From Bacteroidales bacterium (GTDB lineage: Bacteria; Bacteroidota; Bacteroidia; Bacteroidales; UBA12077), in the NCBI GenBank assembly GCA_028282785.1, contig JANQHE010000024.1, forward strand, positions 1 through 64,000: a stretch of 64,000 nt of DNA. The letters run 5' to 3'. This document shows, in pieces, positions 11,000 to 42,649 of this stretch. Position numbers and translations under genes: made by a program. Below the pieces are notes generated by a model. It saw nothing but the letters and a program-made list of their open reading frames with translations. It was not told the DNA's origin and searched no databases. The number at the start of each line of letters is the position of its first letter. Position 1 is the stretch's first letter.

Positions 11000-11015
11000 A
11001 ACGGAATTTAAGAAT

Positions 11016-11615: not shown

Positions 11616-11616
11616 A

Positions 11617-12564: not shown

Positions 12565-12595
12565 TATGAATTGATGAAAAATAAAATATTAACTG

Positions 12596-16282: not shown

Positions 16283-16686
16283 AATTTTGTTTTAAACCAT
16301 TTTAATGAATCTCTAACCAAAAGAATTGAAACAAAAAACAGAGGTATTAAAACAAATAACTGAATGGGGCTTTTTACCTTTGTAGAGAAAATTTCATGCA
16401 GATGCCCTGTATTTACTATTAGAGCAACAAATGACAATAACATGTTTAGTAATTTTCCGGTACTCCCTCTTAAATATTGCGTGTTTAAAATTGCTAAAGC
16501 AGGAACACAAAAGCTAAGCCCTAATATAAATAGCATAAGGGTTGGAATTATTCCATCAGCTTCTTTTTTTACAATATTAATTCCGTAAAAAACAGGTACT
16601 ATATGAAGAATAATATGAAACATTAAACCTATTAGAATAATTATCCAAAGTAGACTTATTCTTTGTTTTATTCTTTCGTTATTCAT
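16279..16686 (-). CDS. Small four-helix membrane protein of the Hmu operon
   Basis: A 135-residue protein with four predicted membrane helices. Two His pairs near helix ends, H24/H28 and H95/H97, could be haem or metal ligands. The start codon overlaps the hmuS stop as ATGA (16686-16683), so translation is coupled to HmuS. No family is recognised. Candidate roles are an anchor, electron carrier or permease subunit for the demetallation complex; this is inference from position and residues. Confidence 0.6.
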   Translation of the reverse strand: MNNERIKQRISLLWIIILIGLMFHIILHIVPVFYGINIVKKEADGIIPTLMLFILGLSFCVPALAILNTQYLRGSTGKLLNMLLSFVALIVNTGHLHEIFSTKVKSPIQLFVLIPLFFVSILLVRDSLKWFKTKL

Positions 16687-21377: not shown

Positions 21378-21467
21378 TTTTTTAATATAAAAAGGTGATT
21401 TCCAGAACTATCTAGCTACCAAAAACCGGATCTAATGGAAATCACACTTGTTAAAATTGAATGAAAT

Positions 21468-22097: not shown

Positions 22098-22115
22098 TTG
22101 GTGAGTATTTAATTG

Positions 22116-24281
22116 TTATAAAATAAATTTGATTCCAAAAAAGAACCTTCTACCCGGATCAATTACTGCCAGGTCTTTAGTGTCCACATAATCGAATATA
22201 TTATTAACTCCGGCTAACGCCTGAATAGTTAATTTATTTCTTAATTTAAACTGTTGGTTATAAGTGAATTTCCACATAGAATAAGCATCGCTTTTATCCT
22301 TATAAATGGTTGTTTCTTCAACCCCGGTATCAGGATTTTCCTCCGTTTCCTGATATTGAAATAATCTGCCGGACGAAATTCGCCCGTTAATATTTGCACT
22401 TAACGGAAATTTTATTTTGGTAAGCTTATACGAAAGAGCAACTGTTCCGGTATGAACACTATTTCCATAAAGCTGTAAACCGGTTGATTTGTCTTCCGTA
22501 TCAGAATAAGCATAACCAGTTTTTAACATGGTATTTTTTAAAGGGCTAATTGAAACATAGCTTTCTATACCTCTTAACACTGCTTCATTTACATTCATAT
22601 AGTGTTTTTCAAGCATATCTGTTTCGCTGTTAACACGGTCGACAGACTCTATTTTGTCTTTTATTGAGTTGTTATAAGCATTTATGGAGATATTGAATAA
22701 ATTTCTGGTATATTCGGCCGAAAAAGAGGTGTAGAATGCATTTTCCGGTTTTAAATCAGGATTTCCATAAATCATAAACATTCCACTATGATCGAAGTTA
22801 TAGTGAAGTTCTTTTAAAGTAGGAGCCTTATAACCTTTCGTTATGTTCCCTCTGAATTTAAATTTTTTAGGAGAATACATTAATGATAGTTTTGGAGTAA
22901 TATGATTACCATAATTTGTATGGTATGTATATCTCAATCCTCCGACTAATACAATATCTTCAATTAGTTCATAGTCTAATTGTAAAAATGCATTGTAATC
23001 ATATGAATTTTTATCCTTATCTCCTGTTTCTCCAAATAGTTGAATTGAATAGATATTTTCTAAGTTTAATTCTGTCCCGATTATAATTTCTAGGGTATTT
23101 ACAGGAGTATAAGTATCCATTAAAAAGAATGATGAAAACTGATAGTCCGATTTTAATTCCTTTTCATCATTTCGGCTTTCGTAAACGGTATATGAGTTAT
23201 AAATGTCCGTATTCGCTCTAAATTCAATAGATTGCTTTTCATTTACCATTATGGATAATTTTCCTCCGAGGGTATAGTTTTTATTTAAATTATGTGTTGA
23301 TTTAGTACTTTTTTTAGGGTTATTAAGCTCATGCTGAAAGTAAACCCCTTGTGTAGTTAAGGTAATTTTATCATTAAGCTTATAACTTAATTTAAGCTTG
23401 CCTGAATAGTCTGTATTTTTATCAACAGTATATGAAGCGGGAGTTTCGGGTGTCAGGTCATATCCATCTGTACTGCTTCTAAATCCATTTAAATGTATAT
23501 TTAACTTATTTAACGATATACCAACATTTGATGATATGAGTAAGGTATTATTTTTTGTATATCTGGAACTTACTGTGGCGGAAAAAGGTTTTGTAAAATT
23601 GTTATCGTTGGTTATGATATTAATTACAGCACCTATTGCATTAGATCCATATAAAACCGAAGAAGCTCCGTTTACAATTTCTATTTGTTTTATGTTTTCT
23701 GCATTAAGCCTGCTGAAGTTTACATTACCCCTGGTTTCGCCAACCATTCTTTCACCGTTTACCAGAACAAGAATATAATCGTTATCCAGCCCTTGTATTT
23801 GAAGATTATCTCCATGCCCATCAGGTGAGAATTGTACTCCCGGCATTGAATATTCTAAAGCATCAAGAGCTGTAACAGCACCGGCTTCCTGTAATTCTAC
23901 CCCTGTAACAACTTTTGTTAGAATTGGGCTTTTACCTAGAGTTTTTCTGGTCCTGGTGCCGGTAACAACAACCTGCTCCATGTTGAATAAATCTTGTTCC
24001 ATTAGATATTTTCTAGATTCATCTTGTTTTATAGTATCGATAATTGTTTTGTAACCGACAAAGGATATGGCTATAACGGATTGATTATGAACCGGATTTT
24101 TTGCAATTCCATTTACCGTTGTAACCGCATGAAATTTTGCCTGAGTTTTAATTTCTTCAAAACAAATATTGGCATAAGGAATGGGTTCCTTATTTTCTTT
24201 ATCTAGCACTAAGATTTCCGGATTATTAGCATAAACCTTCCCTAGAATCAACATGAATACTAATAATGCAACTTTTTTCAT
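22116..24281 (-). CDS. hmuR: HmuR-type TonB-dependent haem receptor
   Basis: A 721-residue outer-membrane receptor: signal peptide, short CarboxypepD_reg-like domain (about 20-95), plug domain (about 105-215, TGTRTRKTLGKSP, LNAENIKQIEIVNGASSVLY) and a beta-barrel ending FFFGIKFIL. Context with hmuY and hmuS makes haem the likely substrate. Its start codon is overlapped by the end of a 46-codon ORF (ATGA), suggesting translational coupling. It leads the operon that continues at least to DUF2149 at 14.6 kb. Confidence 0.85.
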   Translation of the reverse strand: MKKVALLVFMLILGKVYANNPEILVLDKENKEPIPYANICFEEIKTQAKFHAVTTVNGIAKNPVHNQSVIAISFVGYKTIIDTIKQDESRKYLMEQDLFNMEQVVVTGTRTRKTLGKSPILTKVVTGVELQEAGAVTALDALEYSMPGVQFSPDGHGDNLQIQGLDNDYILVLVNGERMVGETRGNVNFSRLNAENIKQIEIVNGASSVLYGSNAIGAVINIITNDNNFTKPFSATVSSRYTKNNTLLISSNVGISLNKLNIHLNGFRSSTDGYDLTPETPASYTVDKNTDYSGKLKLSYKLNDKITLTTQGVYFQHELNNPKKSTKSTHNLNKNYTLGGKLSIMVNEKQSIEFRANTDIYNSYTVYESRNDEKELKSDYQFSSFFLMDTYTPVNTLEIIIGTELNLENIYSIQLFGETGDKDKNSYDYNAFLQLDYELIEDIVLVGGLRYTYHTNYGNHITPKLSLMYSPKKFKFRGNITKGYKAPTLKELHYNFDHSGMFMIYGNPDLKPENAFYTSFSAEYTRNLFNISINAYNNSIKDKIESVDRVNSETDMLEKHYMNVNEAVLRGIESYVSISPLKNTMLKTGYAYSDTEDKSTGLQLYGNSVHTGTVALSYKLTKIKFPLSANINGRISSGRLFQYQETEENPDTGVEETTIYKDKSDAYSMWKFTYNQQFKLRNKLTIQALAGVNNIFDYVDTKDLAVIDPGRRFFFGIKFIL

Positions 24282-26148: not shown

Positions 26149-26655
26149 CTAATTAAACTGTCCCTTCAATTGCTGAACCCAGTTTTTTATCCTTTCATTT
26201 GTTAAATTTCCTTGATTTTCTTCGTCAAGCGGTAAACCAATCAATTCACCATTTATTTCCGCTTTTGATACATCATAGCTATAACTTTCTTTAGCAACCT
26301 GGCCTATTACTTCGCATCCTTTACCTTCTAATGTTTCATATATAATTCCAATTGCATCAACAAAAGAATCCGGATAAGTATCCTGGTCCCCTAAACCGAA
26401 AATGGCAACTTTTTTTCCTTCAAGATTGGCATTTTCTATTTCCGAAAGAAAAACGTCAAAATCATCTTGCATATCGCCAACACCCCATGTAGAAGCTCCA
26501 AAAATTATATTTGAATAAGTCTCAAGATCGTTCGCACTTGCATCGCTTACTTCTTTAACATCGGCCATATCTGTTCCTAATTCTTGTTGTATTTGATTAG
26601 CTGCTGTTTCTGTGTTTCCGGTTGATGAACCGTAAAATATTCCTACTTTTTCCAT
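26149..26655 (-). CDS. fldA: Flavodoxin, canonical long-chain type
   Basis: A 168-residue flavodoxin with the FMN phosphate loop SSTGNT (10-15), Trp57 in STWGVGDMQ, Tyr94 in GLGDQDTYPDSF and C-terminal RIKNWVQQLK. All flavin-binding positions are standard, unlike the flavodoxin at 10.4 kb. It acts as an electron carrier in place of ferredoxin when iron is scarce. It begins 6 bp after the DUF6686-like gene and precedes DUF2023, so the three probably form an operon beside the haem locus. Confidence 0.93.
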   Translation of the reverse strand: MEKVGIFYGSSTGNTETAANQIQQELGTDMADVKEVSDASANDLETYSNIIFGASTWGVGDMQDDFDVFLSEIENANLEGKKVAIFGLGDQDTYPDSFVDAIGIIYETLEGKGCEVIGQVAKESYSYDVSKAEINGELIGLPLDEENQGNLTNERIKNWVQQLKGQFN

Positions 26656-27726: not shown

Positions 27727-30585
27727 ATGCGTATTATTATAACCTTTTTTATTTTTTTAATTGGGATTACTTACTCTTTTGCCGTAAATGAAGGAATGCC
27801 AATTATTAGAAATTTTAAAGCAGAGACTTATGAAGGAGGTAGCAGGATTTATTCTCTCGTTACAACAAAGGATGGATTGTTATACGCTGGTGATAAAACA
27901 GGAATAATTGAGTTTGATGGAGAAAATTGGAATAAAATATATAGTGGATTTGCAATTACATCCTTAGCCGCTGATTCAAATGACATAGTTTATGTTGCAG
28001 GAAGCAAAGGAATAGGAAAATTAGTGCCGGATTCTACTAATACGATTACCTATAAATCACTAAATCAAATTATTACTACCGAGAAAGATTTAAAAAAGTT
28101 TAGGTTTGCTAAAGTTTTTAATATTAAAGATCGAATTGTTTATGTTCTTGGTAAAGAAATAATAATTAACACACTGGAAAATATACGCATTTTAGAAACC
28201 TCACATGATTTTATTTATTATCAGAAGTTGGATGATGAACTATATTTTTATTCTGAGGAAGATGGGGTATATCAACTGGTTGAAAATAAACTTAAATTGA
28301 TCAATAATAATGAGCAAATCAAGAACAAAAGAGTTGTGGGATTTTTAAATTATAAAAATCAACTTCATGTTTTAATGGAGAATATTGGAATATATAATTT
28401 GGAATTAAATAAATTAAGCTTAAGCGAACAGATTATATCAAAATTAAATCAGATTAAATTACAGGGTATAGATCAAATTGATGATAGCACATACGCATTA
28501 AAGACTTACTATAATGGTGTTTTGCTTTTTAATAATAAGGGTGAGATTTTTAAGAAATACAGTTATGAGGAAGGGCTTGTAAATAATACCGTATTTTCTG
28601 TGTTTAAGGATTATTGGAATAACTTGTGGATTGGTACGGCTTCGGGAATCTCTTCCATAAGATTAAACTTTCCTTTTACAAAATTCAACAACCATCAGGG
28701 TATTGGGACAGGATATGCTTCAGTATTATATAAAAGCACATTATATTTTGCAACAAGCCAGGGATTGTATTATTCCAAAGAAAATTCTAAAGGCAACCTT
28801 GAATTTATTAAATTATTTGACGGACACGTTTGGGGATTACACCTGATAAAGAACGTTTTGTATTTTGGAAGTCCCGGTGGAATATATTCATGGGATAATA
28901 AACGGATTAAACAGGTAACATTCTATCCCGGAGGATGGAACTTGACTAAAATTGATGACAATAACAATTACTATTTGTCCGGATCTCCGGTCGGATTACT
29001 TTTGTTAAAGCATGATAGGCAACTTGAATATGTTAGATTAATAAAAGGTTTGAACGGGAATATTAGAAATATAATAAAAGATGAACAAAATAATTTTTGG
29101 GCAGAATTTGAAAATGGTCTGTATAGGTTTGTTATCAATGATGATTTAACAGATATTAAGAACCTAAGGATTTTTGACCGAATTGAATTTAATAATAAAC
29201 TAAAACAAGTAATAAAGTATAAGGATGAAGTTTATTTTGTTGCGGATAGCGGTATTTACGTATATAATAATAATCAAGGTTTTTATAAAGATACTGTAAA
29301 ATTTAAATCCATATACAAGGAGGAAAGAATACCGTCGAATATAATTATTGATAGATTTAATCGATGGTGGTTGTTTCGAAATGGAGAAATGTATTGCTAT
29401 AACATTTCTGATAAAGGTGCCGGAAGGTTCCATTTTAGTTTAACCGAATTTGCAAACGATAAATATCCAATTGATTATGAGAATGTTTTTAGTTTAGATA
29501 CTAATTTTGTAATCATAGGCCAGGAAGAAGGATTTCTGGGATATAACCTAGAGATGAAATATAACGGAACTTATTCAGCAAATAGGGTTAGAAGGATTAT
29601 TATTATGTCGCCTAAAGGTAAAGTAAAAACGTTAACCGGTAATGAGAAAACAGTTAATTGGGTACAGTATGGAGATATTGATAAAGGAATAAAGTATGGC
29701 ACCTCAATCAAGTTTTATTATTCTGCTGGATGTAGTAAACATAATTCAGTAAAGTATGCAACTTTTTTGCATGATTTTGATGAAAAGTGGCCTCAATGGA
29801 ATAATGAAACTGTGAAAGAATATACGAATCTAAACAAAGGAGAATATAAATTTATTGTAAGGTCAATTAATAAATCAGGTGAAGAAAGTACTCCTGCAAT
29901 TTATAGTTTTACTGTGCTTCCTCCATGGTATCTAACAATATATTCTAAAGTTGCATATGTTTTATTATTTGTAATAATAGTTATTTTAATTAGACAAAGA
30001 ATACGCTATCATACAAAGAATTTAAAACAGAGATTGCAAAAAGAGCAAGAGGAAATACTTTATAGAAAAGAGCAAACTCAAATACAAGAGAATCTAAAAA
30101 AGCGGCAGGAAATTGTAAAGCTTAGAAATGAAAAACTAAGAATTGATAATTTGTACAAATCTAAGGAATTAGCTAACTCAACGATGGGAGTTATTAAAAA
30201 GAATCAGTTTTTAACGGAGTTAAAGGAAGAGTTGGAGAAAATTAAGACTTACACGGAGAAAAATAAATTGGTAACAGGAGATGTAAAAGATGTGATCAGG
30301 AAAATTGATCGAGACATTGATAATGAAGAAAACTGGAAAGTTTTCGAAGATTATTTTGACCGGGTACATGAGAAATTTCTAAAACGGTTGAAAGCAAAAT
30401 ATCCTATTCTAACTTCCAAAGATTTACGTTTATGTGCTTATCTCAGAATGAATTTATCGACCAAAGAAATTGCTCCGTTAATGAATATTACTGTTCGGGG
30501 AGTTGAGATTAGCAGATATCGCCTTAGAAAGAAGTTGGAAATTGATAGAAATGATAATTTGAACGAATTTCTGCTTCAGTTTTAA
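27727..30585 (+). CDS. Propeller/Y_Y_Y sensor with LuxR-type DNA-binding domain
   Basis: A 952-residue membrane-bound regulator. Signal peptide, two-component-regulator-type beta-propeller repeats (about 30-650, e.g. VFKDYWNNLWIGTASGISS), a Y_Y_Y domain (about 650-735), one membrane helix (about 740-760), a coiled coil (about 765-850) and a C-terminal helix-turn-helix (LSTKEIAPLMNITVRGVEIS). No kinase domain is present, so the protein passes a periplasmic signal directly to DNA from the membrane, as in related Bacteroidota regulators. Its targets are probably the adjacent M1 peptidase and TonB receptor/M16 operon. Confidence 0.85.
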   Translation: MRIIITFFIFLIGITYSFAVNEGMPIIRNFKAETYEGGSRIYSLVTTKDGLLYAGDKTGIIEFDGENWNKIYSGFAITSLAADSNDIVYVAGSKGIGKLVPDSTNTITYKSLNQIITTEKDLKKFRFAKVFNIKDRIVYVLGKEIIINTLENIRILETSHDFIYYQKLDDELYFYSEEDGVYQLVENKLKLINNNEQIKNKRVVGFLNYKNQLHVLMENIGIYNLELNKLSLSEQIISKLNQIKLQGIDQIDDSTYALKTYYNGVLLFNNKGEIFKKYSYEEGLVNNTVFSVFKDYWNNLWIGTASGISSIRLNFPFTKFNNHQGIGTGYASVLYKSTLYFATSQGLYYSKENSKGNLEFIKLFDGHVWGLHLIKNVLYFGSPGGIYSWDNKRIKQVTFYPGGWNLTKIDDNNNYYLSGSPVGLLLLKHDRQLEYVRLIKGLNGNIRNIIKDEQNNFWAEFENGLYRFVINDDLTDIKNLRIFDRIEFNNKLKQVIKYKDEVYFVADSGIYVYNNNQGFYKDTVKFKSIYKEERIPSNIIIDRFNRWWLFRNGEMYCYNISDKGAGRFHFSLTEFANDKYPIDYENVFSLDTNFVIIGQEEGFLGYNLEMKYNGTYSANRVRRIIIMSPKGKVKTLTGNEKTVNWVQYGDIDKGIKYGTSIKFYYSAGCSKHNSVKYATFLHDFDEKWPQWNNETVKEYTNLNKGEYKFIVRSINKSGEESTPAIYSFTVLPPWYLTIYSKVAYVLLFVIIVILIRQRIRYHTKNLKQRLQKEQEEILYRKEQTQIQENLKKRQEIVKLRNEKLRIDNLYKSKELANSTMGVIKKNQFLTELKEELEKIKTYTEKNKLVTGDVKDVIRKIDRDIDNEENWKVFEDYFDRVHEKFLKRLKAKYPILTSKDLRLCAYLRMNLSTKEIAPLMNITVRGVEISRYRLRKKLEIDRNDNLNEFLLQF

Positions 30586-30630: not shown

Positions 30631-32763
30631 TTATTTATACATTATATCATTTTTGGGAAAACTGTATTTACTCCAATTAATTGGCACTTTATCATTAATA
30701 ATATATTTTAATGAAGAATTTAAAACAGGAAAATTTCCTTTTAAAGTGTTTTTAAGCGATTTACCTTCAAATCCAACATAACTGAAATTACTATAGTGCA
30801 TTAGTTTCATATTCAATTGACCAATTAAGGAAGGATTATTACTATTTACATATCCAATGGTTTCATTCTCGTTTTCAGGGTTGGGAATCGTAAAAACAAC
30901 GAGTTCATGATTATTCAAACTATCAATTTTAGATAAAGTTTCTTTGCTTTCAACCAAATTATATTTTTCACGAAAACTTATATACTTTGTAAAAGCATTT
31001 TCAGCTCCTAATATCCACACTGAACAATTACCCGGGAGTTTATCGATCTTATTATCATTTACCATTTGAATATCTATTCCTCGTTCAGAGTACATTCTCG
31101 ACCAGGATATTGCCAGGTTTTTATAATGGAAATAGTCTTTGCTCGATTTGGGTAAAATAATTGTCCATTTATTTGATCCCAAAATTTGAGAAAACGTCGG
31201 AGGTACCTCATCCCGATTCAGTTTTCTCATTACATCAAATAAAGGATCAATATCTATTCTTACTGGTTCATCCGTAAAATTAAGAGAATATGAATGACCA
31301 GGTTCTGATAAATATAACACTTTGCGCTCAACCGTTAAATTGTTTTTAAAATATACATACACAGGAATGTCTAATTCATATGGCTTATCCTGATATGATT
31401 GAGTTATCTCGAAATTTAAAGTGTAGATTTCTTTTTTCTTTTTGACTTTTACCTTGTTTAAATTAATGTTAGGAGCACCTTCGGAATTGATCCATTGATT
31501 AAAAAAATTATCAAGATTTTCTCCGGTGACATGTTCAAAGCAATTTTTAATATCATTAAAAGATGCAGTTTCAAATTTATGATTTTGATAAAAATCAGCG
31601 TATGCTTTTAGAAAAATATCTGTTCCATATTTTACCCTAAGCATATGATTAGCCATTAATACTTTACCATAGCCAATTGCTTCGGTGGCTGCATCATGCT
31701 TTGATTTAAATTGACTTGGAGGAAAATCATTTTCAGAAGTCACATAATCAGTGTATTTTTTTAATTGGGCTCTTCTGAAAACATATCCCTCACCATCTTT
31801 TTCTTTTAGTAAATGGTCCGCCATATAGGTTGTAATTCCTTCGCACCAGTTTCCTTTGCTATAGTCAACATAAACGCTATTTCCCCAATAATTATGTAAT
31901 AGTTCATGCGGATAGGATGTATTTATTATCCAGGGGAAACGCATTACCCTTTTACCAAGCAATGTAAAAGAAGGCATACCATATCCGGTTTCCCAAAAGT
32001 TCTCAATTACATCAAATTTTTGGTACGGAAATTCTCCGATCAAATTGTAATAAAGATTCAAATAATCGCTGGTAGCATCCAGGTATCTTTGAGCCAGTAC
32101 TTTATCTTCGTTGATTAAATAAACGTTTATGTCAATACCATTTATTGCTTCGGTGTACTTGGTCCATTTATTACCAATTAAACATACCTGATTAGTAGGC
32201 TGATCCATACGGAAAAAGTAACATATGGTACTATCCTTAACTTCTTTTGAAATAATATTTCCTTGTGAAGTTAATAACCAGTCTTTATCTATATCAACAT
32301 TTATCGAAAAAGTTTTTAAATCAGCTAATTCAAAATCAGGCACCCAATAAGTTTGACCAGCTAAATAAATTCCTTTTTCGAAAATAATTCCATTTGTACT
32401 TTCATACATAGTTGCGTGTGTCATGTTTTGTATGCCATCCTTGTTATCAGAAATAATTCCTTTATATTTTATTACTATATAATTAGTATCCAGCTTAGTC
32501 GGTAATTTATATTTAATATAGTTATATTCGGAACCAATAACTGTTAATTCACAACTGGACTCATAAATAGATAAATTAGAGTTAAGATAGAAAACATTCA
32601 TTTCCGAATTGGATAATTTTATTGAATCTGTCACATTAATAAACGATTCCGGAATATTTAGCTGTACATTTAGATTATGTTGGTTATACTCGTTGTCATT
32701 AAGAGCAGTAGAGAATTTTACTGATGTTATCAAAGCGAATATTAAATAAATTAACTGTTTCAT
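30631..32763 (-). CDS. Secreted M1-family zinc aminopeptidase
   Basis: A 710-residue protein with signal peptide (cleavage near ITSVKFSTA). The zinc site HELLH is followed by NYWGNSVYVDYSKGNWC and the third-ligand Glu after 17 residues, one fewer than the usual 18. The C-terminal part (about 480-710) is an extra domain with a Rossmann-like look. M1 enzymes trim N-terminal residues from peptides. It is transcribed divergently from the TonB receptor/M16 operon with a good promoter of its own, which fits peptide breakdown linked to that system. Confidence 0.85.
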   Translation of the reverse strand: MKQLIYLIFALITSVKFSTALNDNEYNQHNLNVQLNIPESFINVTDSIKLSNSEMNVFYLNSNLSIYESSCELTVIGSEYNYIKYKLPTKLDTNYIVIKYKGIISDNKDGIQNMTHATMYESTNGIIFEKGIYLAGQTYWVPDFELADLKTFSINVDIDKDWLLTSQGNIISKEVKDSTICYFFRMDQPTNQVCLIGNKWTKYTEAINGIDINVYLINEDKVLAQRYLDATSDYLNLYYNLIGEFPYQKFDVIENFWETGYGMPSFTLLGKRVMRFPWIINTSYPHELLHNYWGNSVYVDYSKGNWCEGITTYMADHLLKEKDGEGYVFRRAQLKKYTDYVTSENDFPPSQFKSKHDAATEAIGYGKVLMANHMLRVKYGTDIFLKAYADFYQNHKFETASFNDIKNCFEHVTGENLDNFFNQWINSEGAPNINLNKVKVKKKKEIYTLNFEITQSYQDKPYELDIPVYVYFKNNLTVERKVLYLSEPGHSYSLNFTDEPVRIDIDPLFDVMRKLNRDEVPPTFSQILGSNKWTIILPKSSKDYFHYKNLAISWSRMYSERGIDIQMVNDNKIDKLPGNCSVWILGAENAFTKYISFREKYNLVESKETLSKIDSLNNHELVVFTIPNPENENETIGYVNSNNPSLIGQLNMKLMHYSNFSYVGFEGKSLKNTLKGNFPVLNSSLKYIINDKVPINWSKYSFPKNDIMYK

Positions 32764-32823: not shown

Positions 32824-33143
32824 GTTGGTGTTTGCTGAAATGAAGTATTATAACACTAAATAAAATAATATAATTAGCTATTAAACAGATAATTATAATT
32901 AAAAGTTTGTGAAAGAAGAAAAATGTAAAAGATGTACTATTAATGTATTGGAGATTTGCAATTCAATAAAAACTTAAAAATTCTATCTGATTGAATATAA
33001 AAAATTTGAAAAAAAATAAACTCAACAAGATTACAACATTTCAAAAAAATACTTTCTCATAAGAGATGATATAAAATAAAGATAATCAGAATAAAGTTAA
33101 GAAATAAGGATCAAATATTACATCATCCGTGTTTCTTCACTTA

Positions 33144-33174
33144 TTGCAAGAAATTAATCTGCATTATAGATTTG
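33144..33174 (+). promoter_or_regulatory. Promoter of the TonB receptor/M16 operon
   Basis: TTG (33144-33146), 20 nt, then TAGATTTG (33167-33174), an exact TAnnTTTG match, 17 nt before the ATG at 33192. Its place rules out the GTG at 33129 as the receptor start. Confidence 0.7.
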
Positions 33175-33191: not shown

Positions 33192-35846
33192 ATGAAAAGT
33201 TATAAATATCTATTATTACTATTTTTTACAACTATCTTTTCTATAACGGCTAATGCTCAAAAATATCAATTTAGCGGAAAAGTTTTTGATGCTGAAAAAA
33301 ATCCTTTATACTATGCCGTAGTTAATTTAAAAGGAACACATATATATGATTTAACCGATGAGAATGGTCAATACATTTTAGAAGATATTGTACCAGGTAA
33401 GTATACACTTTATGTAACTATTCTTGGATACCAAAATATTGAAAAAGAAATTGAAATTAATGGAGATGTTGTAAATTACAATTTCTATTTGGAAGAATCT
33501 TCATTAGCGTTAGACGAGGTTGTGGTTACTGCAAAAGTAACGCAAAGTAAAGAGGGGAGTACAACGTATAAAATAGGCAGTGATGCTATACAGCAAATAC
33601 AACCTATAAGTGTAAGTGACATTTTACAACTGATACCCGGGAATCAAGTTGGTTCAACTAACTTAAATAGAGTGGCTCAAGCGGATTTACGAAATGCAGG
33701 AGGTGATTACTCTAGCTTAAATGCGTTTGGCACAGCAGTGATTTTAGATGGAAATCAGCTTAGTACTGACGGAGTTATGCAATCAGGAGAGGGTGCCGGG
33801 CATTCAACAGCAAATAAAGGAATAGATTTAAGAGAGATTTCAGCTTCCAATATTGAGTCGGTAGAGGTTGTTTCTGGTGTTCCTAGTGCAAAATATGGGA
33901 ATGTTACGTCCGGAGCTATTATTATAAATAGGAAGGCAGGTTATACGCCTTATCATTTTAGTTTCAATAGTACACCTAACTCTTACCAATTTGGAGTTAA
34001 TAAAGGGTTTAAATCTGAGAAAGGTGGTTTTTTGAATATTGATGGAGATTATACATATAATAATGCAACAGGAGTCTCAAGAAAAAGATATTATCAAAGA
34101 ATAAATATGGGATTAATGTGGACAAAAGAAATCTCTAAAAACTTAGAGTGGAATCATAATATGTCATTAAGGTATGGTTTAAACTTTGACGGACAGAGAA
34201 AAGACCCTGATGAGGAAGTTGTACAGGCTAAATTTGAAAATAGGTCTCATAATATTATTTTTGGTACAAACGGGAGCTTAAAAGTTTTAGGAAGAACAAC
34301 CTATTCTATTAACGGTAATTATACACACCGGTATTCATATAAAGATGTTATTGACGGCGGGCCAACAATTGTAATGGAATCTCTAGAGGAGGGTACTCAT
34401 TTTGCTGGTTATTCTCCTGTTGTATTCAATAGAGTAACAGAATTTTATGGAGAACCTGTTAACATAAATGGAAGGCTTGAAACACAACAAACGTTTAAAA
34501 CCCTGGGTTTTAGACATAGCACCACTTCAGGATTTGAATTTTCTTACAATAAAAATTACGGAAAAGGAAGAGTCCTTGCAGACAGTACAAATGTAGCATC
34601 AAACACAGGTGGACAGAGAGAAATGAATTTTTATAATGCGCCAGCTTCAGAGATTTATTCTTTCTATTTTCAAGATGATATTAGCTTAGATAAAGAGAAG
34701 GCAAATTATCTTTTTAAAGTAGGATTACGATATGATTATATGTTAAAAAGATATCATTTATTATCACCAAGAATATCTTTATCAGCACGTTATTTTGAGA
34801 AACTAAGATTTAGGTTGGCTTATGGTATTTCATATAAGACACCATCAATGCTTCAAATGTATCCTGGACCAACGTATTTTGATGTTAAGAATCTGGATAA
34901 AAGTTATTCAGAAGATGAAGCACGGAGGATTGCTGTCGTAACAACTTATATTTATCAACCGACACATGAGAATATTGACCCTTCAAAAGGAACGACTTTG
35001 GAAGGAGGGTTTGATATTGATCATGATGGCTTTAACTTAAGAGTAACAGGGTTTTATAAGGAAATTAACAATGGTATATCCAGTGTTAGTAATTTACTAA
35101 CTTTCGATAAACAAGTATGGGATACTTTAACAATAGCGGGAACCAATGCACTTACAGCAATTCCTACGGATAGCATAGTAAGAGTTTCAACAACATTCCC
35201 GGTTTATGAGAACTCAGTTCAAAGTCAAACTCAAGGAATAGAATTGTCTGTACAATTTCCTAAAATAAAGGCAACATCGACTACAATAAACCTTTCAGGG
35301 AGCTACTTAAAAACCCATGAAAGTAATGATGCATTAACAATTAAAGGGTCTCCCAATTTAGGGGGAGCTTCCGAATTAAGATATGGTGTTTATGAGAGGC
35401 CATCCTATGATACTTATGTAACACGCTCTAATTTGACTATCGCACAACATATACCTCAAATTAAATTGATGGTTACATTAATGACGGAAATAAACTGGAT
35501 AAATAAAAAGGAGCTCACAAATGATCCAAGTCCGTATCCTTTTGCATATTATAGTATAGATGGTACGTATAATGTGATACCTGAAGGTGAGAGAGCAAAT
35601 GAAGAGTATAATGATTTATATCGCTCAAGTGAATATTTCACTACGGCTCCGCAACCTATTTATTTTAATTTTCATGTACAAATAAGAAAAGAAACAAAAC
35701 AAGGGCACAACTTCTCTTTTTATGCTAGCAATTTTTTATGGTATAATCCCACTTATGAAGGAAAAGCCTCTCTAGATGGCAGAAAAGCGATACATTATCT
35801 TAATTCGAAAGTAACTTTTGGTATTGGATTCAATTTTAAATTATAA
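33192..35846 (+). CDS. TonB-dependent receptor of the DUF4876/M16 operon
   Basis: About 884 residues from the ATG at 33192, which begins a good signal peptide (MKSYKYLLLLFFTTIFSITA). An upstream GTG at 33129 lies before the promoter and is rejected. A CarboxypepD_reg-like domain follows (KYQFSGKVFDAEKNPLYYAV), then a plug (VVTAKVTQSKEGSTTYKIG, VSGVPSAKYGNVTSGAI) and a beta-barrel ending FGIGFNFKL. It imports a ligand unknown from sequence; the ChaN-like neighbour suggests haem. The lipoprotein gene follows after 26 bp. Confidence 0.88.
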   Translation: MKSYKYLLLLFFTTIFSITANAQKYQFSGKVFDAEKNPLYYAVVNLKGTHIYDLTDENGQYILEDIVPGKYTLYVTILGYQNIEKEIEINGDVVNYNFYLEESSLALDEVVVTAKVTQSKEGSTTYKIGSDAIQQIQPISVSDILQLIPGNQVGSTNLNRVAQADLRNAGGDYSSLNAFGTAVILDGNQLSTDGVMQSGEGAGHSTANKGIDLREISASNIESVEVVSGVPSAKYGNVTSGAIIINRKAGYTPYHFSFNSTPNSYQFGVNKGFKSEKGGFLNIDGDYTYNNATGVSRKRYYQRINMGLMWTKEISKNLEWNHNMSLRYGLNFDGQRKDPDEEVVQAKFENRSHNIIFGTNGSLKVLGRTTYSINGNYTHRYSYKDVIDGGPTIVMESLEEGTHFAGYSPVVFNRVTEFYGEPVNINGRLETQQTFKTLGFRHSTTSGFEFSYNKNYGKGRVLADSTNVASNTGGQREMNFYNAPASEIYSFYFQDDISLDKEKANYLFKVGLRYDYMLKRYHLLSPRISLSARYFEKLRFRLAYGISYKTPSMLQMYPGPTYFDVKNLDKSYSEDEARRIAVVTTYIYQPTHENIDPSKGTTLEGGFDIDHDGFNLRVTGFYKEINNGISSVSNLLTFDKQVWDTLTIAGTNALTAIPTDSIVRVSTTFPVYENSVQSQTQGIELSVQFPKIKATSTTINLSGSYLKTHESNDALTIKGSPNLGGASELRYGVYERPSYDTYVTRSNLTIAQHIPQIKLMVTLMTEINWINKKELTNDPSPYPFAYYSIDGTYNVIPEGERANEEYNDLYRSSEYFTTAPQPIYFNFHVQIRKETKQGHNFSFYASNFLWYNPTYEGKASLDGRKAIHYLNSKVTFGIGFNFKL

Positions 35847-35872
35847 ATAAAGTTTAACTAAACCCAATTACT

Positions 35873-37111
35873 ATGGAAAACAAATTTAAATTATTCTTAG
35901 CAATGACATTAGCTACAATTATGGCTATAAGTTTTGTTGCTTGTGATGACGATGATGAAGTAAAATTAGCGAATTTGAATGTTCAAGTTGATATAGCAGA
36001 TTCGTTTACAGGCTTATCTGCTGCTAATTTGTACGTTTATATTACAAACACTTCAGATAATGGAGTAGATTCAGCATTAACAGATGCAACAGGTTTAGCT
36101 GCATTTGTTGATTTGGCTCCTGGAACATATAATGTTTCTGCCGAAATGGAATTAACTGCAGAAGAAGCTGGTGCTGCATCAGGTTATTACGAGGAAATGA
36201 CATTAGTTGGAACTGCAATTAATGAGGAATTATTAGGCGGATTCGATCATGAGGCTTCTATTGAGTTAGATGGAAAACCAGCAAGTAGCCTTGTTATTAA
36301 AGAGCTTTATTTTAATGGATCAATGGTTGATTTTATTTTCTATAAAAGTCAGTTTATTGAACTTTTTAATAATTCAGATGACGTTGTTTATGCAGATGGT
36401 TTATATGTTGCGATGCTTGCGCCACAAACTAATGGGTCAGGAACAAGCGATGTACCTACAACTTTAGATTTAACAGAAACGGTATATGCACAAAAAATAA
36501 TGAGAGTGCCAGGAACTGGTAGTGATTACCCCATTCAAGCAGGCGAAACTTTTCTTATAGCGCTAAATGCTGTTGATTATAGTAATGGAGGAGCATCTAC
36601 TAACGTAGATCTTTCCGGGGCAGATATGGAAACTTTTGCAACCGCATGGATGGAATCTTTAGGAAGAACAGGAGCTATTGATGATGTTGATAATATTGAT
36701 GTTCCTAATATGGAATGTGTTTATTTAAATCAAACTTATGGATGGTACCAAATGGATCCGGGTAGCCCAAGTGTTGTTATTTTTAGAAATGAATCTTTCA
36801 CAATCAATGAAATAACAGATCCGGCTGCGGATATTCCTGCCGAAATTTATGAAATATACGCAGAAATTAATGTTGAAGATATCTTAGATGGAGTAGATAT
36901 TATGGTAAATGCAGAGACCGGAAATTTCAAAAGACTACCATCAAACATTGATGCCGGATTTAGCTATATCGATGGTTATTTTACTAACAAGAGTGTTAGA
37001 AGGAAAGAGGAAAGAACCGTAAGTGGACGTAAAATTTTAAAGGACACAAATAACAGTACTAATGATCTAGAAGTTATTGATACTCCTACACCAGGTGGAT
37101 TTGGAAATTAA
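35873..37111 (+). CDS. DUF4876 lipoprotein, receptor partner
   Basis: A 412-residue lipoprotein with lipobox ending at Cys24 (AISFVACDDDDE). An N-terminal Ig-like/carboxypeptidase-regulatory repeat (about 35-125, TDATGLAAFVDLAPGTYNVS) is followed by a lamin-tail-like beta domain (YFNGSMVDFIFYKSQFIELF). This matches the DUF4876 lipoproteins that follow TonB receptors in Bacteroidota. It probably sits on the cell surface and captures or gates the ligand. A hairpin separates it from the next gene. Confidence 0.75.
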   Translation: MENKFKLFLAMTLATIMAISFVACDDDDEVKLANLNVQVDIADSFTGLSAANLYVYITNTSDNGVDSALTDATGLAAFVDLAPGTYNVSAEMELTAEEAGAASGYYEEMTLVGTAINEELLGGFDHEASIELDGKPASSLVIKELYFNGSMVDFIFYKSQFIELFNNSDDVVYADGLYVAMLAPQTNGSGTSDVPTTLDLTETVYAQKIMRVPGTGSDYPIQAGETFLIALNAVDYSNGGASTNVDLSGADMETFATAWMESLGRTGAIDDVDNIDVPNMECVYLNQTYGWYQMDPGSPSVVIFRNESFTINEITDPAADIPAEIYEIYAEINVEDILDGVDIMVNAETGNFKRLPSNIDAGFSYIDGYFTNKSVRRKEERTVSGRKILKDTNNSTNDLEVIDTPTPGGFGN

Positions 37112-37117
37112 TAATAA

Positions 37118-37147
37118 TTAAGGTTGCTCTTTTTAGGGCAACCTTAA
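37118..37147 (+). terminator. Intercistronic hairpin, partial terminator or mRNA stabiliser
   Basis: TTAAGGTTGC (37118-37127) pairs perfectly with GCAACCTTAA (37138-37147) around a 10-nt loop. No T-run follows, so partial termination or mRNA processing between the lipoprotein and the next gene is more likely than full termination. Confidence 0.6.
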
Positions 37148-37162
37148 ATCAAAATTCAGAAT

Positions 37163-38728
37163 ATGAAAAACTTATTGCTCATATTATTTTTTGTACAGAG
37201 TATTGTTGTTTTAAGTAAAGCTTCAGATACAACCAATGTTAGATTATCATTGGTTCATGATCCAAACAGAGAGTTTTATTTAAAAGAACAACTTGATGTA
37301 TACAAATTCTTACCTTCTAACATTGGATTATGGGATAATGGTGATTATTCGGCAATATTTGTGAAAGGAGGCACAGATCAAGGCAGTTTTAAGTTGATTG
37401 ATGAATTTGATAAAAATGAGCAATTTTCTTTTAAAAGCGAATCTGTTCAATCTTTTGAAAAAGCAGGATGGAGATTTTATGGAAACTTCACTTTTAATAT
37501 TTCAGACCATGAAAAGGCTGATTGGAATTTAGGATATCAAAAATCTGAAATAGGAAACCCATTTCGATTAATAACAGAAAGGACAGGAGATTTTAATGTT
37601 AAGCATTATGGTTTAAACGGAATAATGAATAAAAAGCTGGGAGAAAAAATATCTTTGGCTTTAGGAATTGTTTACAGCGGAGACTTATATTTCAGGTTAC
37701 GAGACACTCGAAATGAATTTTATAATGTAAAAACAGAAATTAACGGTTCTTTCAGTTATGCCATAACGAAAAGCAAACACATGTCTTTAGGTTTGTCTTT
37801 CTATTATAAAAAGGGTTCTCCACAATTTAGTAACACGTTCTTTGGAACGGAACCAGATCAGAAACTAAATTTTAATGAAGGCTTGGGGGATTTTAGTGAA
37901 ATTGACAACCTTAGTAATCAATATTATTTAACAAATAAAAATCCCAAATATTATGTTGGTTATTTTTCTGGTATAAGAAATAAGTTTTCCATAGCTTATT
38001 CTTTATATTCAGGAGATGAACTATGGGAGAATAGAATTTATAGTGAACCAATTGATTCTGTTTATCAGTCACACGAGGAGCTCTATAAGTACGAATACTT
38101 AAGTCAAGAGATCATTAGTTCATATCTAATTGATAAATCAAATTATAAAGTCTTTAATTTTCTAAGTGCAAAATATATAAATGGCACAGGATATAGATAT
38201 AGGGGATTTTACGAAAAGACATACATTTACGATGGTTTAAATATAAAAGCAACTTCTCAGTTGTTGAGGCCAAATTCAAGTTTTTTTAATTTAAGTAAAT
38301 TAACATTGGATTATGAAAATGTAAGCAAAAAAGGTATGTTGTATGCCAATCAAATTGACTATACTAACATAACAACCAATATTAGAACCGGCTATTCTTT
38401 TAAATTGAATACCAGTAATAAACTAGCTTTCAATATTGATGGGAGTTATAAATATAATCTGTCTTATAAGCATGATGTTGTAGCGGCAGCTCAAAGAAGG
38501 TACACGGAAGTTTTTGCACATAATGAAGTTGCATATCACACGACAAACTATTATACAATCGGGGGCGAAATAAAATGGCTTAAACAATCGCAGAAAATGG
38601 GAACCGAACTGCTTGTTAAATACCGTTACTTAACTCCGACCGACGTAAAATTTATAAATCAATATTCAATAATATCTGATAAGAATTATAGATATTATTG
38701 GGAGGCTTGTCTTAACTTTTACTTTTAA
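37163..38728 (+). CDS. DUF6850-like outer-membrane beta-barrel protein
   Basis: A 521-residue protein with signal peptide (MKNLLLILFFVQSIVVLSKA) and strands throughout, ending in an aromatic-rich C-terminus (YYWEACLNFYF), as expected for an outer-membrane barrel. I believe it belongs to the DUF6850 group commonly found after DUF4876 genes; that family call is moderate. It may be a second porin-like component of the uptake system. The next gene starts 13 bp later. Confidence 0.65.
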   Translation: MKNLLLILFFVQSIVVLSKASDTTNVRLSLVHDPNREFYLKEQLDVYKFLPSNIGLWDNGDYSAIFVKGGTDQGSFKLIDEFDKNEQFSFKSESVQSFEKAGWRFYGNFTFNISDHEKADWNLGYQKSEIGNPFRLITERTGDFNVKHYGLNGIMNKKLGEKISLALGIVYSGDLYFRLRDTRNEFYNVKTEINGSFSYAITKSKHMSLGLSFYYKKGSPQFSNTFFGTEPDQKLNFNEGLGDFSEIDNLSNQYYLTNKNPKYYVGYFSGIRNKFSIAYSLYSGDELWENRIYSEPIDSVYQSHEELYKYEYLSQEIISSYLIDKSNYKVFNFLSAKYINGTGYRYRGFYEKTYIYDGLNIKATSQLLRPNSSFFNLSKLTLDYENVSKKGMLYANQIDYTNITTNIRTGYSFKLNTSNKLAFNIDGSYKYNLSYKHDVVAAAQRRYTEVFAHNEVAYHTTNYYTIGGEIKWLKQSQKMGTELLVKYRYLTPTDVKFINQYSIISDKNYRYYWEACLNFYF

Positions 38729-38741
38729 AAACGAAAATAAA

Positions 38742-39713
38742 ATGAAAAAAATAACAAGTATTATTCTGATAACTTTATTACTACTAAATACATCTTTTGC
38801 AAAAAGAGATAAAAAAAAGAATAAAGACGAACAAAAAACATACACAAGTGATTTACCGGCATATGTAATTTATAATTCTGAAGGAGAGAAAGTTACCTTC
38901 TCAGAAATGATGGAAGAACTCTATAAACATGACATTTGTTTATTTGGAGAAATGCATGATGATCCTATCTCCCATTGGTTAGAAAAAATGGTTACAGAAG
39001 CAATGGTTAAGGAAAAAGGACAAAATCTTGTATTAGGTGGTGAGATGTGGGAGGCTGATCAGCAATTGTTAATGGATGAATTTATGGTTCATAAACTTGT
39101 AGATAAAAAGGCATATGTAGAAAGCGCTAAAAACTGGCCAAATTTCAGAGATTATAGACCTTTGTTGGGAATTGCACTTCGTAACGATCTTAAGTTTGTT
39201 TGCACCAATATACCTCGTCGTTATGCTAAGGTAGTTTATAAAAAAGGAATTGAATATTTGGATAGTTTGCCGGAGGCAGCCTATCAATATCTTCCTCCTA
39301 TGCCCATTCATTTTGACTTAACACAACCTGCATATGCTAATATGATGAGTGTTTTTGGTCCGGATGATACTGCTCATAATAAAAATGCAGGGGCAGCATC
39401 AGCCATGATGGCTTACAAAGGTTCAAACCTTGTAAAGGCTCAAGCAATAAAGGATGCAACGATGGCATATCGAATCTTACAAAATTGGGAAAAAGGGAAA
39501 TACTTTTTACACTACAATGGTACCTATCATTCGAAATTCTATGATAGTATCTATTATTACTTGAAATATTATAACCCGGAAGTTGATATTGTAACCATTC
39601 ATACCTGGGAAGTAAAGGATAATTTGGAGTTGCCAGAGGAAGAAAATGCTGCTGATTTTAACATTATGGTTCCTACAACTATGCCAAAGACTTATGATAG
39701 CGGTGCGTTATAA
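38742..39713 (+). CDS. ChaN-like haem-binding protein
   Basis: A 323-residue secreted protein; signal peptide ends near TSFAKRDKK, without a lipobox Cys. The ChaN/Tiki-type fold is shown by ICLFGEMHDDPISHW, then GGEMWEADQQ, and the C-terminal HYNGTYHSKFYDS. ChaN proteins bind haem, and the related Tiki proteins are metallopeptidase-like. The operon position between the barrel and the M16 peptidases supports handling of haem or a haem peptide in the periplasm. Confidence 0.8.
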   Translation: MKKITSIILITLLLLNTSFAKRDKKKNKDEQKTYTSDLPAYVIYNSEGEKVTFSEMMEELYKHDICLFGEMHDDPISHWLEKMVTEAMVKEKGQNLVLGGEMWEADQQLLMDEFMVHKLVDKKAYVESAKNWPNFRDYRPLLGIALRNDLKFVCTNIPRRYAKVVYKKGIEYLDSLPEAAYQYLPPMPIHFDLTQPAYANMMSVFGPDDTAHNKNAGAASAMMAYKGSNLVKAQAIKDATMAYRILQNWEKGKYFLHYNGTYHSKFYDSIYYYLKYYNPEVDIVTIHTWEVKDNLELPEEENAADFNIMVPTTMPKTYDSGAL

Positions 39714-39806
39714 TTAAAATTACACATAAGTTAACATAACTTTTTTAATGCATAAATATTAAGTAAAATATATTTAAGCCAGCGATAGCTGTATAAAGAA
39801 TAAAAT

Positions 39807-41126
39807 ATGAAGAAAATTATCGTTATAATGTTGTTAATACTTCCATCAATTCTATGTGCTAAAAAGAAACCAATGGCAGAATTCGTGGAGTATGATCTAG
39901 ACAATGGTTTACACGTAATTATTTATCACGATGTAAATGAACCTAACGTTGTTGTCGGAACTAAATATCATGTTGGTTCTAAAAACGAAGAAGCAGATCG
40001 TACGGGATTTGCACATTTCTATGAGCATTTACTTTTCCATGGTACTAAAAATATACCACAAGGCGAATTCGAAAATATAGTTATGAATGCCGGTGGATAT
40101 TGTAATGCATATACAAGTTATGATGTAACCTACTACTATCAACTTTTACCGGCTCATGAGTTTAAATTAGGTTTATGGGTTGAATCGGAAAGAATGTTGC
40201 ACCCGGTAATTACAGAGGAAGGAATAGATCGCGAGCGAGAAATTGTAAAAGAAGAAAAACGTATGCGTTATGATAATAAAGTATTGGGTAATGCATATTA
40301 TGATATGATGGGTGCAATGTTTACATACGAAACCTATGGACATAATATGATCGGTTCCATGGAAGATCTGGATGCTTCATCAATAAAAGATTTTGATGCT
40401 TTCTTCAAAAAATATTATGTACCTAATAATGCATGCTTAGTTGTAGCTGGTAACGTAGATATTCCTGAAACTAAAAAGTGGATTGATTATTATTTTAAAG
40501 ATATTCCAAAAGGAAAAGAAGTCAAAAGACCAACCAATTTTGGAACACCGTCGGGAAAAGAAAAAATTATAGAGAAAACAGAAAAAGGAATTAAAGAAAC
40601 CGCTGTTGCATTATGTTATTATGCAATGCCTGAAACACATGAGGATTCTTATGTGATGAACGTAATTGCAGCAATTTTATCCGGGGATAATTCGTATTCT
40701 TATTTTGACAAGGATGTTTTAGTCGATAGTGATACAATTATTAATCATGTTTCCGCGACAACTGAACTATGGGAAAAAGTTGGAGCATTTAGGATTAAAG
40801 GAAAACTCAAGGTAGAAAACCAGGAGCAACACTTAATCTCAAAAGTTGAAGAACAACTGGAAAGATTAAAAAATGAACCTGTAGACGATTATGTATTACA
40901 ACAAGTTTTAAATGTTTTTGAAGTAAGTTATACTGATTTTTATTTTCATGCCGAATCCTTAGCCGATCAAGTTACCAACTTTTACCACTTCTGGGGAGAT
41001 GCAAGCGAATTTAATAATGTAATTGAGCACTATACGAGCATAACTAGTGAAGATATTCAACGTGTTGCAAAAAAATACTTTAATAAAGATAATCGGGTAA
41101 CTATTATTTATCATCCTGAAAAATAG
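39807..41126 (+). CDS. M16 family zinc peptidase, active subunit
   Basis: A 439-residue exported protease: signal peptide (residues 1-17), then the inverted zinc motif H70-F-Y-E73-H74 (HFYEHLLFHG) and the distal Glu in the EREIVKEEKR segment about 75 residues on. Size and order match M16B half-enzymes that work as heterodimers. It is preceded by a 93-bp gap with a weak hairpin, so it may have extra transcription control. The next gene starts 6 bp after its stop. It likely degrades an imported or receptor-bound polypeptide. Confidence 0.88.
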   Translation: MKKIIVIMLLILPSILCAKKKPMAEFVEYDLDNGLHVIIYHDVNEPNVVVGTKYHVGSKNEEADRTGFAHFYEHLLFHGTKNIPQGEFENIVMNAGGYCNAYTSYDVTYYYQLLPAHEFKLGLWVESERMLHPVITEEGIDREREIVKEEKRMRYDNKVLGNAYYDMMGAMFTYETYGHNMIGSMEDLDASSIKDFDAFFKKYYVPNNACLVVAGNVDIPETKKWIDYYFKDIPKGKEVKRPTNFGTPSGKEKIIEKTEKGIKETAVALCYYAMPETHEDSYVMNVIAAILSGDNSYSYFDKDVLVDSDTIINHVSATTELWEKVGAFRIKGKLKVENQEQHLISKVEEQLERLKNEPVDDYVLQQVLNVFEVSYTDFYFHAESLADQVTNFYHFWGDASEFNNVIEHYTSITSEDIQRVAKKYFNKDNRVTIIYHPEK

Positions 41127-41132
41127 ATTGTC

Positions 41133-42590
41133 ATGAAAAATATTATATTATCATTAATTATATTGTTCATTGTTGTCAAAGCGAATGCACAAGTTGACAG
41201 AACACAAGTACCACACCCAAATAGTCCTGAAAAATTAAACGTGGGAGTATTAATTCCAATTAAAATGGACAATAATTTGCAGGTTTATTTAGCCCCAATA
41301 AAAAAATATCCAAAATTTACAATCTCTATAAATATAGAGCAGTTAGGCTTTGATGAGGATGAAAGACAAGAGGAAAAAGGAATTTTGGGAAAGGCATATT
41401 ATTCAAAATTATCAGAAAAATACCCAAATGGTGAAATAGATTCTTTGGTAAAATTAAAAGGCTCAATGTTGTCTGTAACTGCTCATGGAGGTACAATAAA
41501 GGGTATGAACAGAGATATTGAAACTTTGTTGGATATGTACTTTGATTTACTTCAAAATCCTGTAATAAAGAAAGAATACATAAAGGAGGAGGCAGAAAAT
41601 CACAAGAAGTCTTTGGAGAGAAAGAAAACATCAAAAGGAGGTGTTTTTAATAACAAATCATTTGATAAAGAGAGATTAATAGATTCGCTATTATATGGTA
41701 AAAGCCAGGAAAAAGAGAAAAAGGAAGAAATAATTCTAAACTACGATAACATCGGAGTAAACGAGGTTAAAGATTTTATTCAAAAAAGAATGGTAGCCAA
41801 CAATTCAGTTGTAGTAATTATTGGCGATTTTACTGAGAAGGAAACCAAGAAACTGATGGATAAATATTTTGGTGATTGGCAGCAGGGAGAATCTTTTGTA
41901 AGAAAAAGGGATCTTAAAACATATGAACCACTTATTAAAAATCGTAAAATTATAGTTCTGGATAAGCCTAATGCAGTTCAATCCAGATTAAGTTTGCAAT
42001 GGATTTTAAAAGGTGCATATATGTATGATGAAAACAGTGTAAAAATTGAGGTTTTAAATGAAATATTAGGCGAAAGCCAGTTATCGTATTTATATAAAAA
42101 TGTTCGAGTAGATAAAGGTTTATGTTATTTTATCGGATCAAGTATTACGCCTGATGATAATGGAGGCAGAGCATCCATATGGACACAGGTGCGTACCGAT
42201 CAAACTGCATACGCAATTGAAAATATTATTTTAGAAATGCTCCGAATCAGAAATTACGACGTTTCGGATCAAGACCTAAAAGTTGCTAAAAGTAGCTTAA
42301 TAGGTGAGTTTACGCGTTCTCTAAGTGGGATAGCACCAGTTCCATATATCTCATTTGCAATGGTAAAGGAGCTGTATAATTTACCAGACGATTATTTACA
42401 AAACAGAGTTTCGAAATATTACGAAATTACAAAGAAAGATATTCGTGAAATGGCAGAGAAATATGTAAATCCTTTTGAGTGTATAGTTATTGTGGAAGGG
42501 AAAGCTGCTGAGCTACACGGTACTTTAGAACGATTTGGAGAAGTAACCTATTTAGATGAAGATGGAAAAGGGTTAATTTTTGAGAAATAG
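41133..42590 (+). CDS. M16 family peptidase homologue lacking the zinc motif
   Basis: A 485-residue exported protein (signal peptide ending KANAQ). The fold and C-terminal M16 half are recognisable (LQWILKGAYMYDENS, YKNVRVDKGLCYFIGSS), but at the place of HxxEH it reads GILGKAYYSKL, so it cannot bind catalytic zinc. In heterodimeric M16B peptidases one subunit is such a non-catalytic partner that shapes the substrate chamber. It pairs with the active subunit directly upstream and ends at a terminator. Confidence 0.85.
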   Translation: MKNIILSLIILFIVVKANAQVDRTQVPHPNSPEKLNVGVLIPIKMDNNLQVYLAPIKKYPKFTISINIEQLGFDEDERQEEKGILGKAYYSKLSEKYPNGEIDSLVKLKGSMLSVTAHGGTIKGMNRDIETLLDMYFDLLQNPVIKKEYIKEEAENHKKSLERKKTSKGGVFNNKSFDKERLIDSLLYGKSQEKEKKEEIILNYDNIGVNEVKDFIQKRMVANNSVVVIIGDFTEKETKKLMDKYFGDWQQGESFVRKRDLKTYEPLIKNRKIIVLDKPNAVQSRLSLQWILKGAYMYDENSVKIEVLNEILGESQLSYLYKNVRVDKGLCYFIGSSITPDDNGGRASIWTQVRTDQTAYAIENIILEMLRIRNYDVSDQDLKVAKSSLIGEFTRSLSGIAPVPYISFAMVKELYNLPDDYLQNRVSKYYEITKKDIREMAEKYVNPFECIVIVEGKAAELHGTLERFGEVTYLDEDGKGLIFEK

Positions 42591-42608
42591 ATAATTTTTA
42601 GGGGTTAA

Positions 42609-42649
42609 AGGGGCTTCTATGTTGTAAAGCAAGTAGAAGCCTCTTTTTT
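42609..42649 (+). terminator. Terminator of the TonB receptor/M16 operon
   Basis: GGGGCTTCTA pairs with TAGAAGCCTC (one G-U pair) around a 14-nt loop, followed by TTTTTT, 19 bp after the stop codon. Confidence 0.85.

Follow-up and report, generated by a model that had tools for sequence, protein, structure and literature searches.

A six-gene Bacteroidales operon joining a TonB-dependent receptor and DUF4876 and DUF6850 proteins to a ChaN-family protein and a probable M16 protease pair

A stretch of 64,000 nucleotides from a Bacteroidales bacterium (GenBank assembly GCA_028282785.1, contig JANQHE010000024.1, positions 1 to 64,000; hereafter the window) carries on its plus strand a unit of six genes, at 33192-42590, in which a TonB-dependent receptor gene shares an operon with a pair of M16 peptidase homologs. 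The genes and families named in the original prediction, made from the DNA alone, are borne out by the open reading frames (ORFs) of the window and by Pfam. The first gene encodes a TonB-dependent receptor of 884 amino acids (33192-35846, with an alternative GTG start at 33129), composed of CarbopepD_reg_2, plug and barrel domains. It is followed by genes for a DUF4876 lipoprotein of 412 amino acids (35873-37111; Pfam match at 2e-28), a predicted DUF6850 outer-membrane barrel of 521 amino acids (37163-38728; Pfam match at 1e-48) and a ChaN/Tiki-superfamily protein of 323 amino acids (38742-39713). The last two genes encode an active-type M16 peptidase, M16a (39807-41126; Pfam domains M16 and M16_C, with HxxEH at residues 70-74), and an inactive-type homolog, M16b (41133-42590; M16_C only, without HxxEH). 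Successive genes are separated by 26, 51, 13, 93 and 6 bp.

The unit was proposed to run from one promoter to one terminator, and the second of these holds up: a predicted intrinsic terminator on the plus strand (42607-42649), consisting of a hairpin at 42607-42646 and a T run to 42649, folds at -20.8 kcal/mol (z -4.4) and is equalled by one of 200 shuffles. A consensus terminator scan of the window did not list this hairpin. The promoter is a candidate by consensus match, TTG-N20-TAGATTTG on the plus strand at 33144-33174, set against the Bacteroidota consensus; the aligned place fits TAnnTTTG in three of four species. Upstream of the receptor gene, CTTTCTCA (33052-33059) and TACATCA (33119-33125) are identical across the four aligned species. 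A known RNA element was ruled out, as an Rfam scan of the window gave no match at gathering score.

We scanned Genome Taxonomy Database (GTDB) genomes with a DUF4876 alignment and took the best 80 of 496 related stretches as loci. Among these, the same six genes stand in the same order in 10 further named genomes: Marinilabilia rubra, MAG82 (the G311 contig), Labilibaculum sp. MAG11, HGW-Bacteroidetes-7, Rikenellaceae UBA12406, Bacteroidales UBA5548, Bacteroidales C8_concoct, an uncultured Alistipes, HGW-Bacteroidetes-5 and Saccharicrinis sp. UBA6048. Because it recurs in these genomes, the order of this cassette is not due to chance, and the M16 pair stands with the receptor gene well beyond the window. 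No gene finder was used, ORFs being chosen by their length; nine of the loci were recovered in this way and the tenth, L207, by inspection, its ChaN and M16a genes being hidden, while L055, L110, L152, L227 and L230 yielded no DUF4876 directon (genes on one strand with gaps under 300 bp). In the congener G311 the full set of six is retained, with identities of 61-88%. The cassette is rare in the order, where DUF4876 occurs in 71 of 393 genomes: among the order loci examined (L110 and L152 being unreadable) ChaN lies in a DUF4876 directon only in the window and G311. Likewise, a search of 78 genomes, including the window's own, turned up ChaN of the cassette type in the window and G311 (87% identity), the other matches listed reaching at most 47%. 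In MAG82, a further single-chain M16 gene encoding 934 amino acids (L201:17470-20274) is the second gene after the cassette.

The M16 proteins had been predicted to form a pair with one zinc motif intact and one lost, and this division is maintained throughout the cassettes, HxxEH being present in 11 of 11 M16a and 0 of 11 M16b proteins, with H70, E73 and H74 of M16a invariant in the 10 proteins aligned. Identity to the window over nine cassettes is 43-88% for M16a and 34-71% for M16b. The best match of M16b in the PDB is 3amj_B, the inactive subunit of a zinc peptidase (2e-9), and the second-best match of M16a is the active subunit, 3amj_C (4e-38); the two proteins thus probably form a heterodimeric protease, a prediction based on these resemblances.

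Among the remaining proteins, the receptor has a Pfam TonB-dependent receptor barrel (1e-20) and scores 54.5 bits against the SusC/RagA model TIGR04056, for which the cut-off is 368; Pfam found no SusD match among the six operon proteins, and a SusC/SusD system was rejected. The DUF4876 protein has a lipobox-like cysteine, present in all 11 cassette proteins, at Cys24, followed by DDDDE; C24 is invariant in 76 sequences. Its structure model (predicted local distance difference test score, pLDDT, 90) best matches 4q1z (BT_1938; E 8e-26, template modeling (TM) score 0.54), itself a DUF4876 entry whose title assigns no function. The DUF6850 protein is modeled with confidence as a barrel that has about 18 strands (pLDDT 92), with generic TonB-receptor and FadL-type barrels as its fold matches (TM 0.23-0.41).

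The fourth protein matches the ChaN family PF04187 at E 2e-46. It has a signal-peptide-like start without a lipobox, which is missing in 10 of 11 cassette proteins, the exception in L202 being a pattern match within a hydrophobic stretch. Cassette ChaN proteins are 51-87% identical to that of the window (nine cassettes), and E70, H72, E101 and H263 are invariant in those aligned. In the PDB the protein matches Campylobacter jejuni ChaN, 2g5g (E 2e-6), over a stretch that takes in the ExH region. PMC7979712 describes 2g5g as haem-binding and places hydrolases such as EreC in the same fold.

Gene trees of the cassettes are largely congruent, the exceptions being low-support swaps near the tips and locus L248. 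In quick trees, cassette ChaN (support 61), M16a (93) and M16b (66) separate from 16, 11 and 7 other copies, respectively, with M16a and M16b forming single clades against the copies sampled. L219 and L225 carry ChaN and the receptor, DUF4876 and DUF6850 genes but lack the M16 pair; in a careful ChaN tree their copies lie among those of the cassettes, so that the clade comprises receptor-linked ChaN. The receptor of L248 groups (100/100) with those of L219, L225 and L217, the last of these loci having a single-chain M16 gene ahead of the same three genes, and placement of the L248 receptor in the window group is rejected (approximately unbiased test, p 0.0002); the DUF4876 and DUF6850 proteins of L248 also lie outside that group in quick trees. 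The ChaN of L248, however, falls in the window set (100/99), and the closest grouping of its M16a is with those of L200, L201 and the window (100/100). At L248, the trees indicate, the receptor part has been exchanged and the processing part, ChaN and M16, kept.

M16 and ChaN are also joined in a second setting. Among 14 non-cassette ChaN loci inspected, L104 (G327) encodes on its minus strand (9585-13343) a single protein of 1252 amino acids containing PF00675, PF05193 and, at residues 995-1207, PF04187; it is preceded on the same strand by genes for a receptor-type protein (1017 amino acids), SusD and DUF4929. Adjoining single-chain M16 and ChaN genes occur in G459, G628, G521, G604 and G405, that is, in at least 5 of 393 order genomes among the matches listed, with 33-39% (M16 part) and 43-48% (ChaN part) identity to the fusion. 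SusD and DUF4929 genes directly precede M16/ChaN on the same strand in G327, G459, G628, G521 and G604; in G405 the SusD and DUF4929 genes are found on a different contig. The receptor gene beside this set was looked for in G327 only. M16 and ChaN are therefore joined behind two different receptor sets, each with a different M16 type, and the fusion is the strongest sign of joint action by the two. In the 13 remaining ChaN loci, the stretch examined contains neither an M16 gene nor any of the receptor, DUF4876 and DUF6850 genes. This, together with the abundance of M16 genes (308 PF00675 matches in 50 genomes chosen among those with loci), would fit a housekeeping role in which M16 and ChaN are merely co-transcribed with the receptor and act on envelope proteins; given that the order is conserved across 11 genomes and survives a receptor exchange, and that the fourteenth locus encodes a fusion behind receptor and SusD genes, we regard such a role as highly improbable.

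The receptor, DUF4876 and DUF6850 genes (the core) extend far beyond the cassette. DUF6850 matches were found in 37 of 296 genomes of the phylum, 29 of them above cut-off, and the three core genes occur together in 189 of 206 directons, or in 184 of 200 distinct ones, distinctness meaning only that loci sharing the same final 150 residues of DUF4876 were removed; their order is uninterrupted in 174 of the 200. As the loci were gathered by searches seeded from this system, these shares are not population frequencies. Accessory genes, named from representatives by Pfam, include ATP-binding cassette (ABC) genes (51 of the 200), DUF4857 (38), a family designated c8 (32), HEAT-repeat proteins (27), MauG (22), M16 (22), BNR propellers (19), Fer4 (12) and ChaN (12); inspection of L207 raises M16 to 23 and ChaN to 13 among 200 distinct DUF4876 loci. 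A weak DUF4876 label at L101 (20 bits) was not borne out by Pfam.

Several of these accessory genes encode other peptidases. Three single-chain M16 proteins tested (L036, L148 and L217) match PqqL and FusC; the first belongs to a second core locus in the window's own genome (C72), where its gene (L036:5950-8775) ends 12 bp before the receptor gene. The accessory proteins scanned also include S46 peptidases (L155, L169, L178 and L196), a met-zincin (L178) and an M28 peptidase (L065). The HEAT-repeat proteins, of about 735 amino acids (e.g., L036:8784-10991, L038:11165-13420 and L059:3531-5759), have HxHG and DxC invariant in 26 of 26 aligned, which hints at a clan-CD cysteine peptidase; Pfam, NCBIfam and PDB sequence searches did not confirm this assignment.

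A gene for a MauG-type di-haem cytochrome c peroxidase follows DUF6850 in L041, L044, L045, L047, L052 and L056, and ABC plus DUF4857 genes occur in 34 of the 200 distinct core directons. In six cassettes (L203-L208), an extracytoplasmic function (ECF) sigma gene and genes for a membrane-type protein of about 105 amino acids and a protein of 150-180 amino acids directly precede the receptor gene (L204:5924-7310). These partners, MauG-type genes being present in 22 of the 200 directons, would suit an importer of metallophores or small metal complexes whose carrier, a peptide or ester and not a protein, would be opened by the M16 pair together with a ChaN-type hydrolase. M16 enzymes, however, cut polypeptides, and the metal-sensor reading of the 150-180-amino-acid protein stayed weak: one of two scanned matched Metal_resist below cut-off (E 0.002), and a profile search with it gave no metal sensor among PDB entries. 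We consider a metallophore importer improbable.

Evidence for a link to iron comes from related loci. PG1019-1022 and BT_3625-3633 are iron-starvation loci with TonB receptor and DUF4876 genes, PG1019-1022 rising 20.8-214.5-fold and BT_3631-3633 112-128-fold upon iron depletion (PMC10434189). The Porphyromonas gingivalis DUF4876 gene is under-expressed in excess hemin (log2 -5.42, beside HmuY at -6.11; PMC10470040), and PG_1019 is among the most changed proteins together with HmuY, PG_1553, flavodoxin and PG_1181 (PMC12119571). Iron control of the operon is predicted as likely; a shared Fur-like site was rejected, since no candidate beats shuffles.

The window itself contains hmu-type haem uptake genes about 9 kb from the operon, on the minus strand (14937-24281): a receptor (22116-24281), HmuY (21468-22097; match at 4e-26), a CobN-family protein (16683-21377), a MotA/ExbB-type protein and two small unassigned genes. 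At 285-12564 and 26149-26655 are genes for two ABC exporters, a MATE protein, a TetR protein, another TonB receptor, two flavodoxins and a DUF1007 protein with a NicO nickel transporter. Nearer the operon, an M1-type peptidase gene (30631-32763, minus strand) and a regulator-like gene (27727-30585, plus strand) lie upstream, both retained in G311 (67% identity); an HlyD-type gene at 42774, 183 bp after M16b, is the next gene downstream, where the genes of G311 differ from those of the window.

The original prediction took the ChaN-like gene to point to haem. Under a haem uptake reading, the receptor group would take haem or haemoproteins, ChaN would bind haem and the M16 pair would clear the protein part, as the match to 2g5g, the hmu-type and flavodoxin genes of the window and the hemin response in P. 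gingivalis would allow. The hydrolases of the ChaN fold leave the haem inference unestablished, and the invariant E70, H72, E101 and H263 would suit an enzyme, though the E-H spacing is unlike the one quoted for EreC. ChaN, moreover, is present in few core directons, as counted above, and the CobN/HmuS family was found in two of the 11 cassette genomes and not in the other nine (mostly metagenome-assembled genomes of unstated completeness), a result on which a role for the operon as an hmu accessory was also rejected. We hold haem uptake to be unlikely, if the most serious of the alternatives.

The reading we favor, with somewhat better than even confidence, is a protease-associated TonB import system in which a protein or peptide is imported and then cut by a periplasmic M16 pair. 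The conserved order suggests that these bacteria import and cut a protein or long peptide, probably for iron; a protein or peptide cargo is slightly favored, a haem cargo accounting for a minority of that. The DUF4876 lipoprotein and DUF6850 barrel would accompany the receptor at the outer membrane and, as a set, capture a protein or long peptide carrying iron or a cofactor, which the receptor would move into the periplasm. There, M16a and M16b would close as a heterodimer and cleave what has been imported, M16a contributing the zinc site and M16b serving as a clamp without catalytic activity. The ChaN-like protein may take up the released haem or other cofactor, or may itself be a hydrolase acting on it. 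That receptor and protease form one unit, as first proposed, agrees with the order in 11 genomes, the largely congruent trees, the fusion and the second operon type, and our confidence is raised because the M16-ChaN pairing recurs in the last two. The hmu-type genes, flavodoxins and TetR gene, which share 33 kb with the operon, also count in its favor.

Several results weigh against this import reading, among them the failure of Fur-like sites to beat shuffles and the scarcity of CobN/HmuS. A phmmer search of PDB sequences with the receptor, run with E up to 10, gave not one match to a full-length receptor; it so has no power and neither demonstrates nor excludes kinship with FusA. By automatic count, M16 genes are absent from 178 of the 200 core directons. 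M16 genes in accessory positions number 11 against 0.9 expected at the genome rate given by the 50 genomes above (Poisson 4e-9, with the window and L087 excluded), but the flanks are also M16-rich (12 observed vs. 1.5 expected). The excess inside directons (16/461) over flanks (13/918) is weak (p 0.012), falling to p 0.13 without the two cassette loci (the window and L087); for tight neighbors it is p 0.031. The link of M16 to the core in general is of moderate strength; that within the cassette is firm.

The proposed parallel to FusA/FusC applies in part. As in the Fus and YddB/PqqL systems, a TonB-dependent receptor gene stands beside an M16 protease gene with a link to iron, and in the related loci L036, L148 and L217 the protease is, as noted above, a single-chain M16 protein with matches to PqqL and FusC. 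In contrast to Fus, the window operon adds a lipoprotein, a second barrel and ChaN, and its protease is not of the single-chain FusC/PqqL type; it is a two-gene active/inactive pair closest to the 3AMJ subunits, the complex here being predicted. FusC supports cleavage-driven import in Pectobacterium (PMC6071955), and Fus-like clusters, surveyed through FusA homology, are reported in Proteobacteria (PMC6793856). In our view, and by analogy, the operon may work like a Fus-type system without being an established member. Its ChaN shares the Pfam family and ExH region of 2G5G, but lacks a lipobox and matches at only 2e-6, and the nearby hmu-type genes are a different gene set. The operon had also been thought undescribed: a literature search (mostly of entries, with subscription papers outside it) found no description of the six-gene operon and none of DUF6850, but loci with receptor and DUF4876 genes were already published as iron-starvation loci (PMC10434189), in a paper whose text contains neither the word M16 nor insulinase.

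A broader proposal, which we advance tentatively and rate as somewhat short of probable, is that M16 and ChaN constitute a portable module joined independently by two unrelated receptor sets (receptor/DUF4876/DUF6850 and SusD/DUF4929), and that the core is a phylum-wide protein-import machine that evolved apart from Fus, with exchangeable proteases (the M16 pair, PqqL-like M16, S46, M28 and perhaps clan-CD with HEAT).

Few systems are known to take up intact proteins via TonB receptors. If the Bacteroidota do have a separate, modular version of their own, DUF4876, DUF6850 and perhaps DUF4929 would gain a function. DUF4876 loci rank with the strong responders to iron starvation in oral and gut species, and, should the import reading hold, their cargo would become testable.

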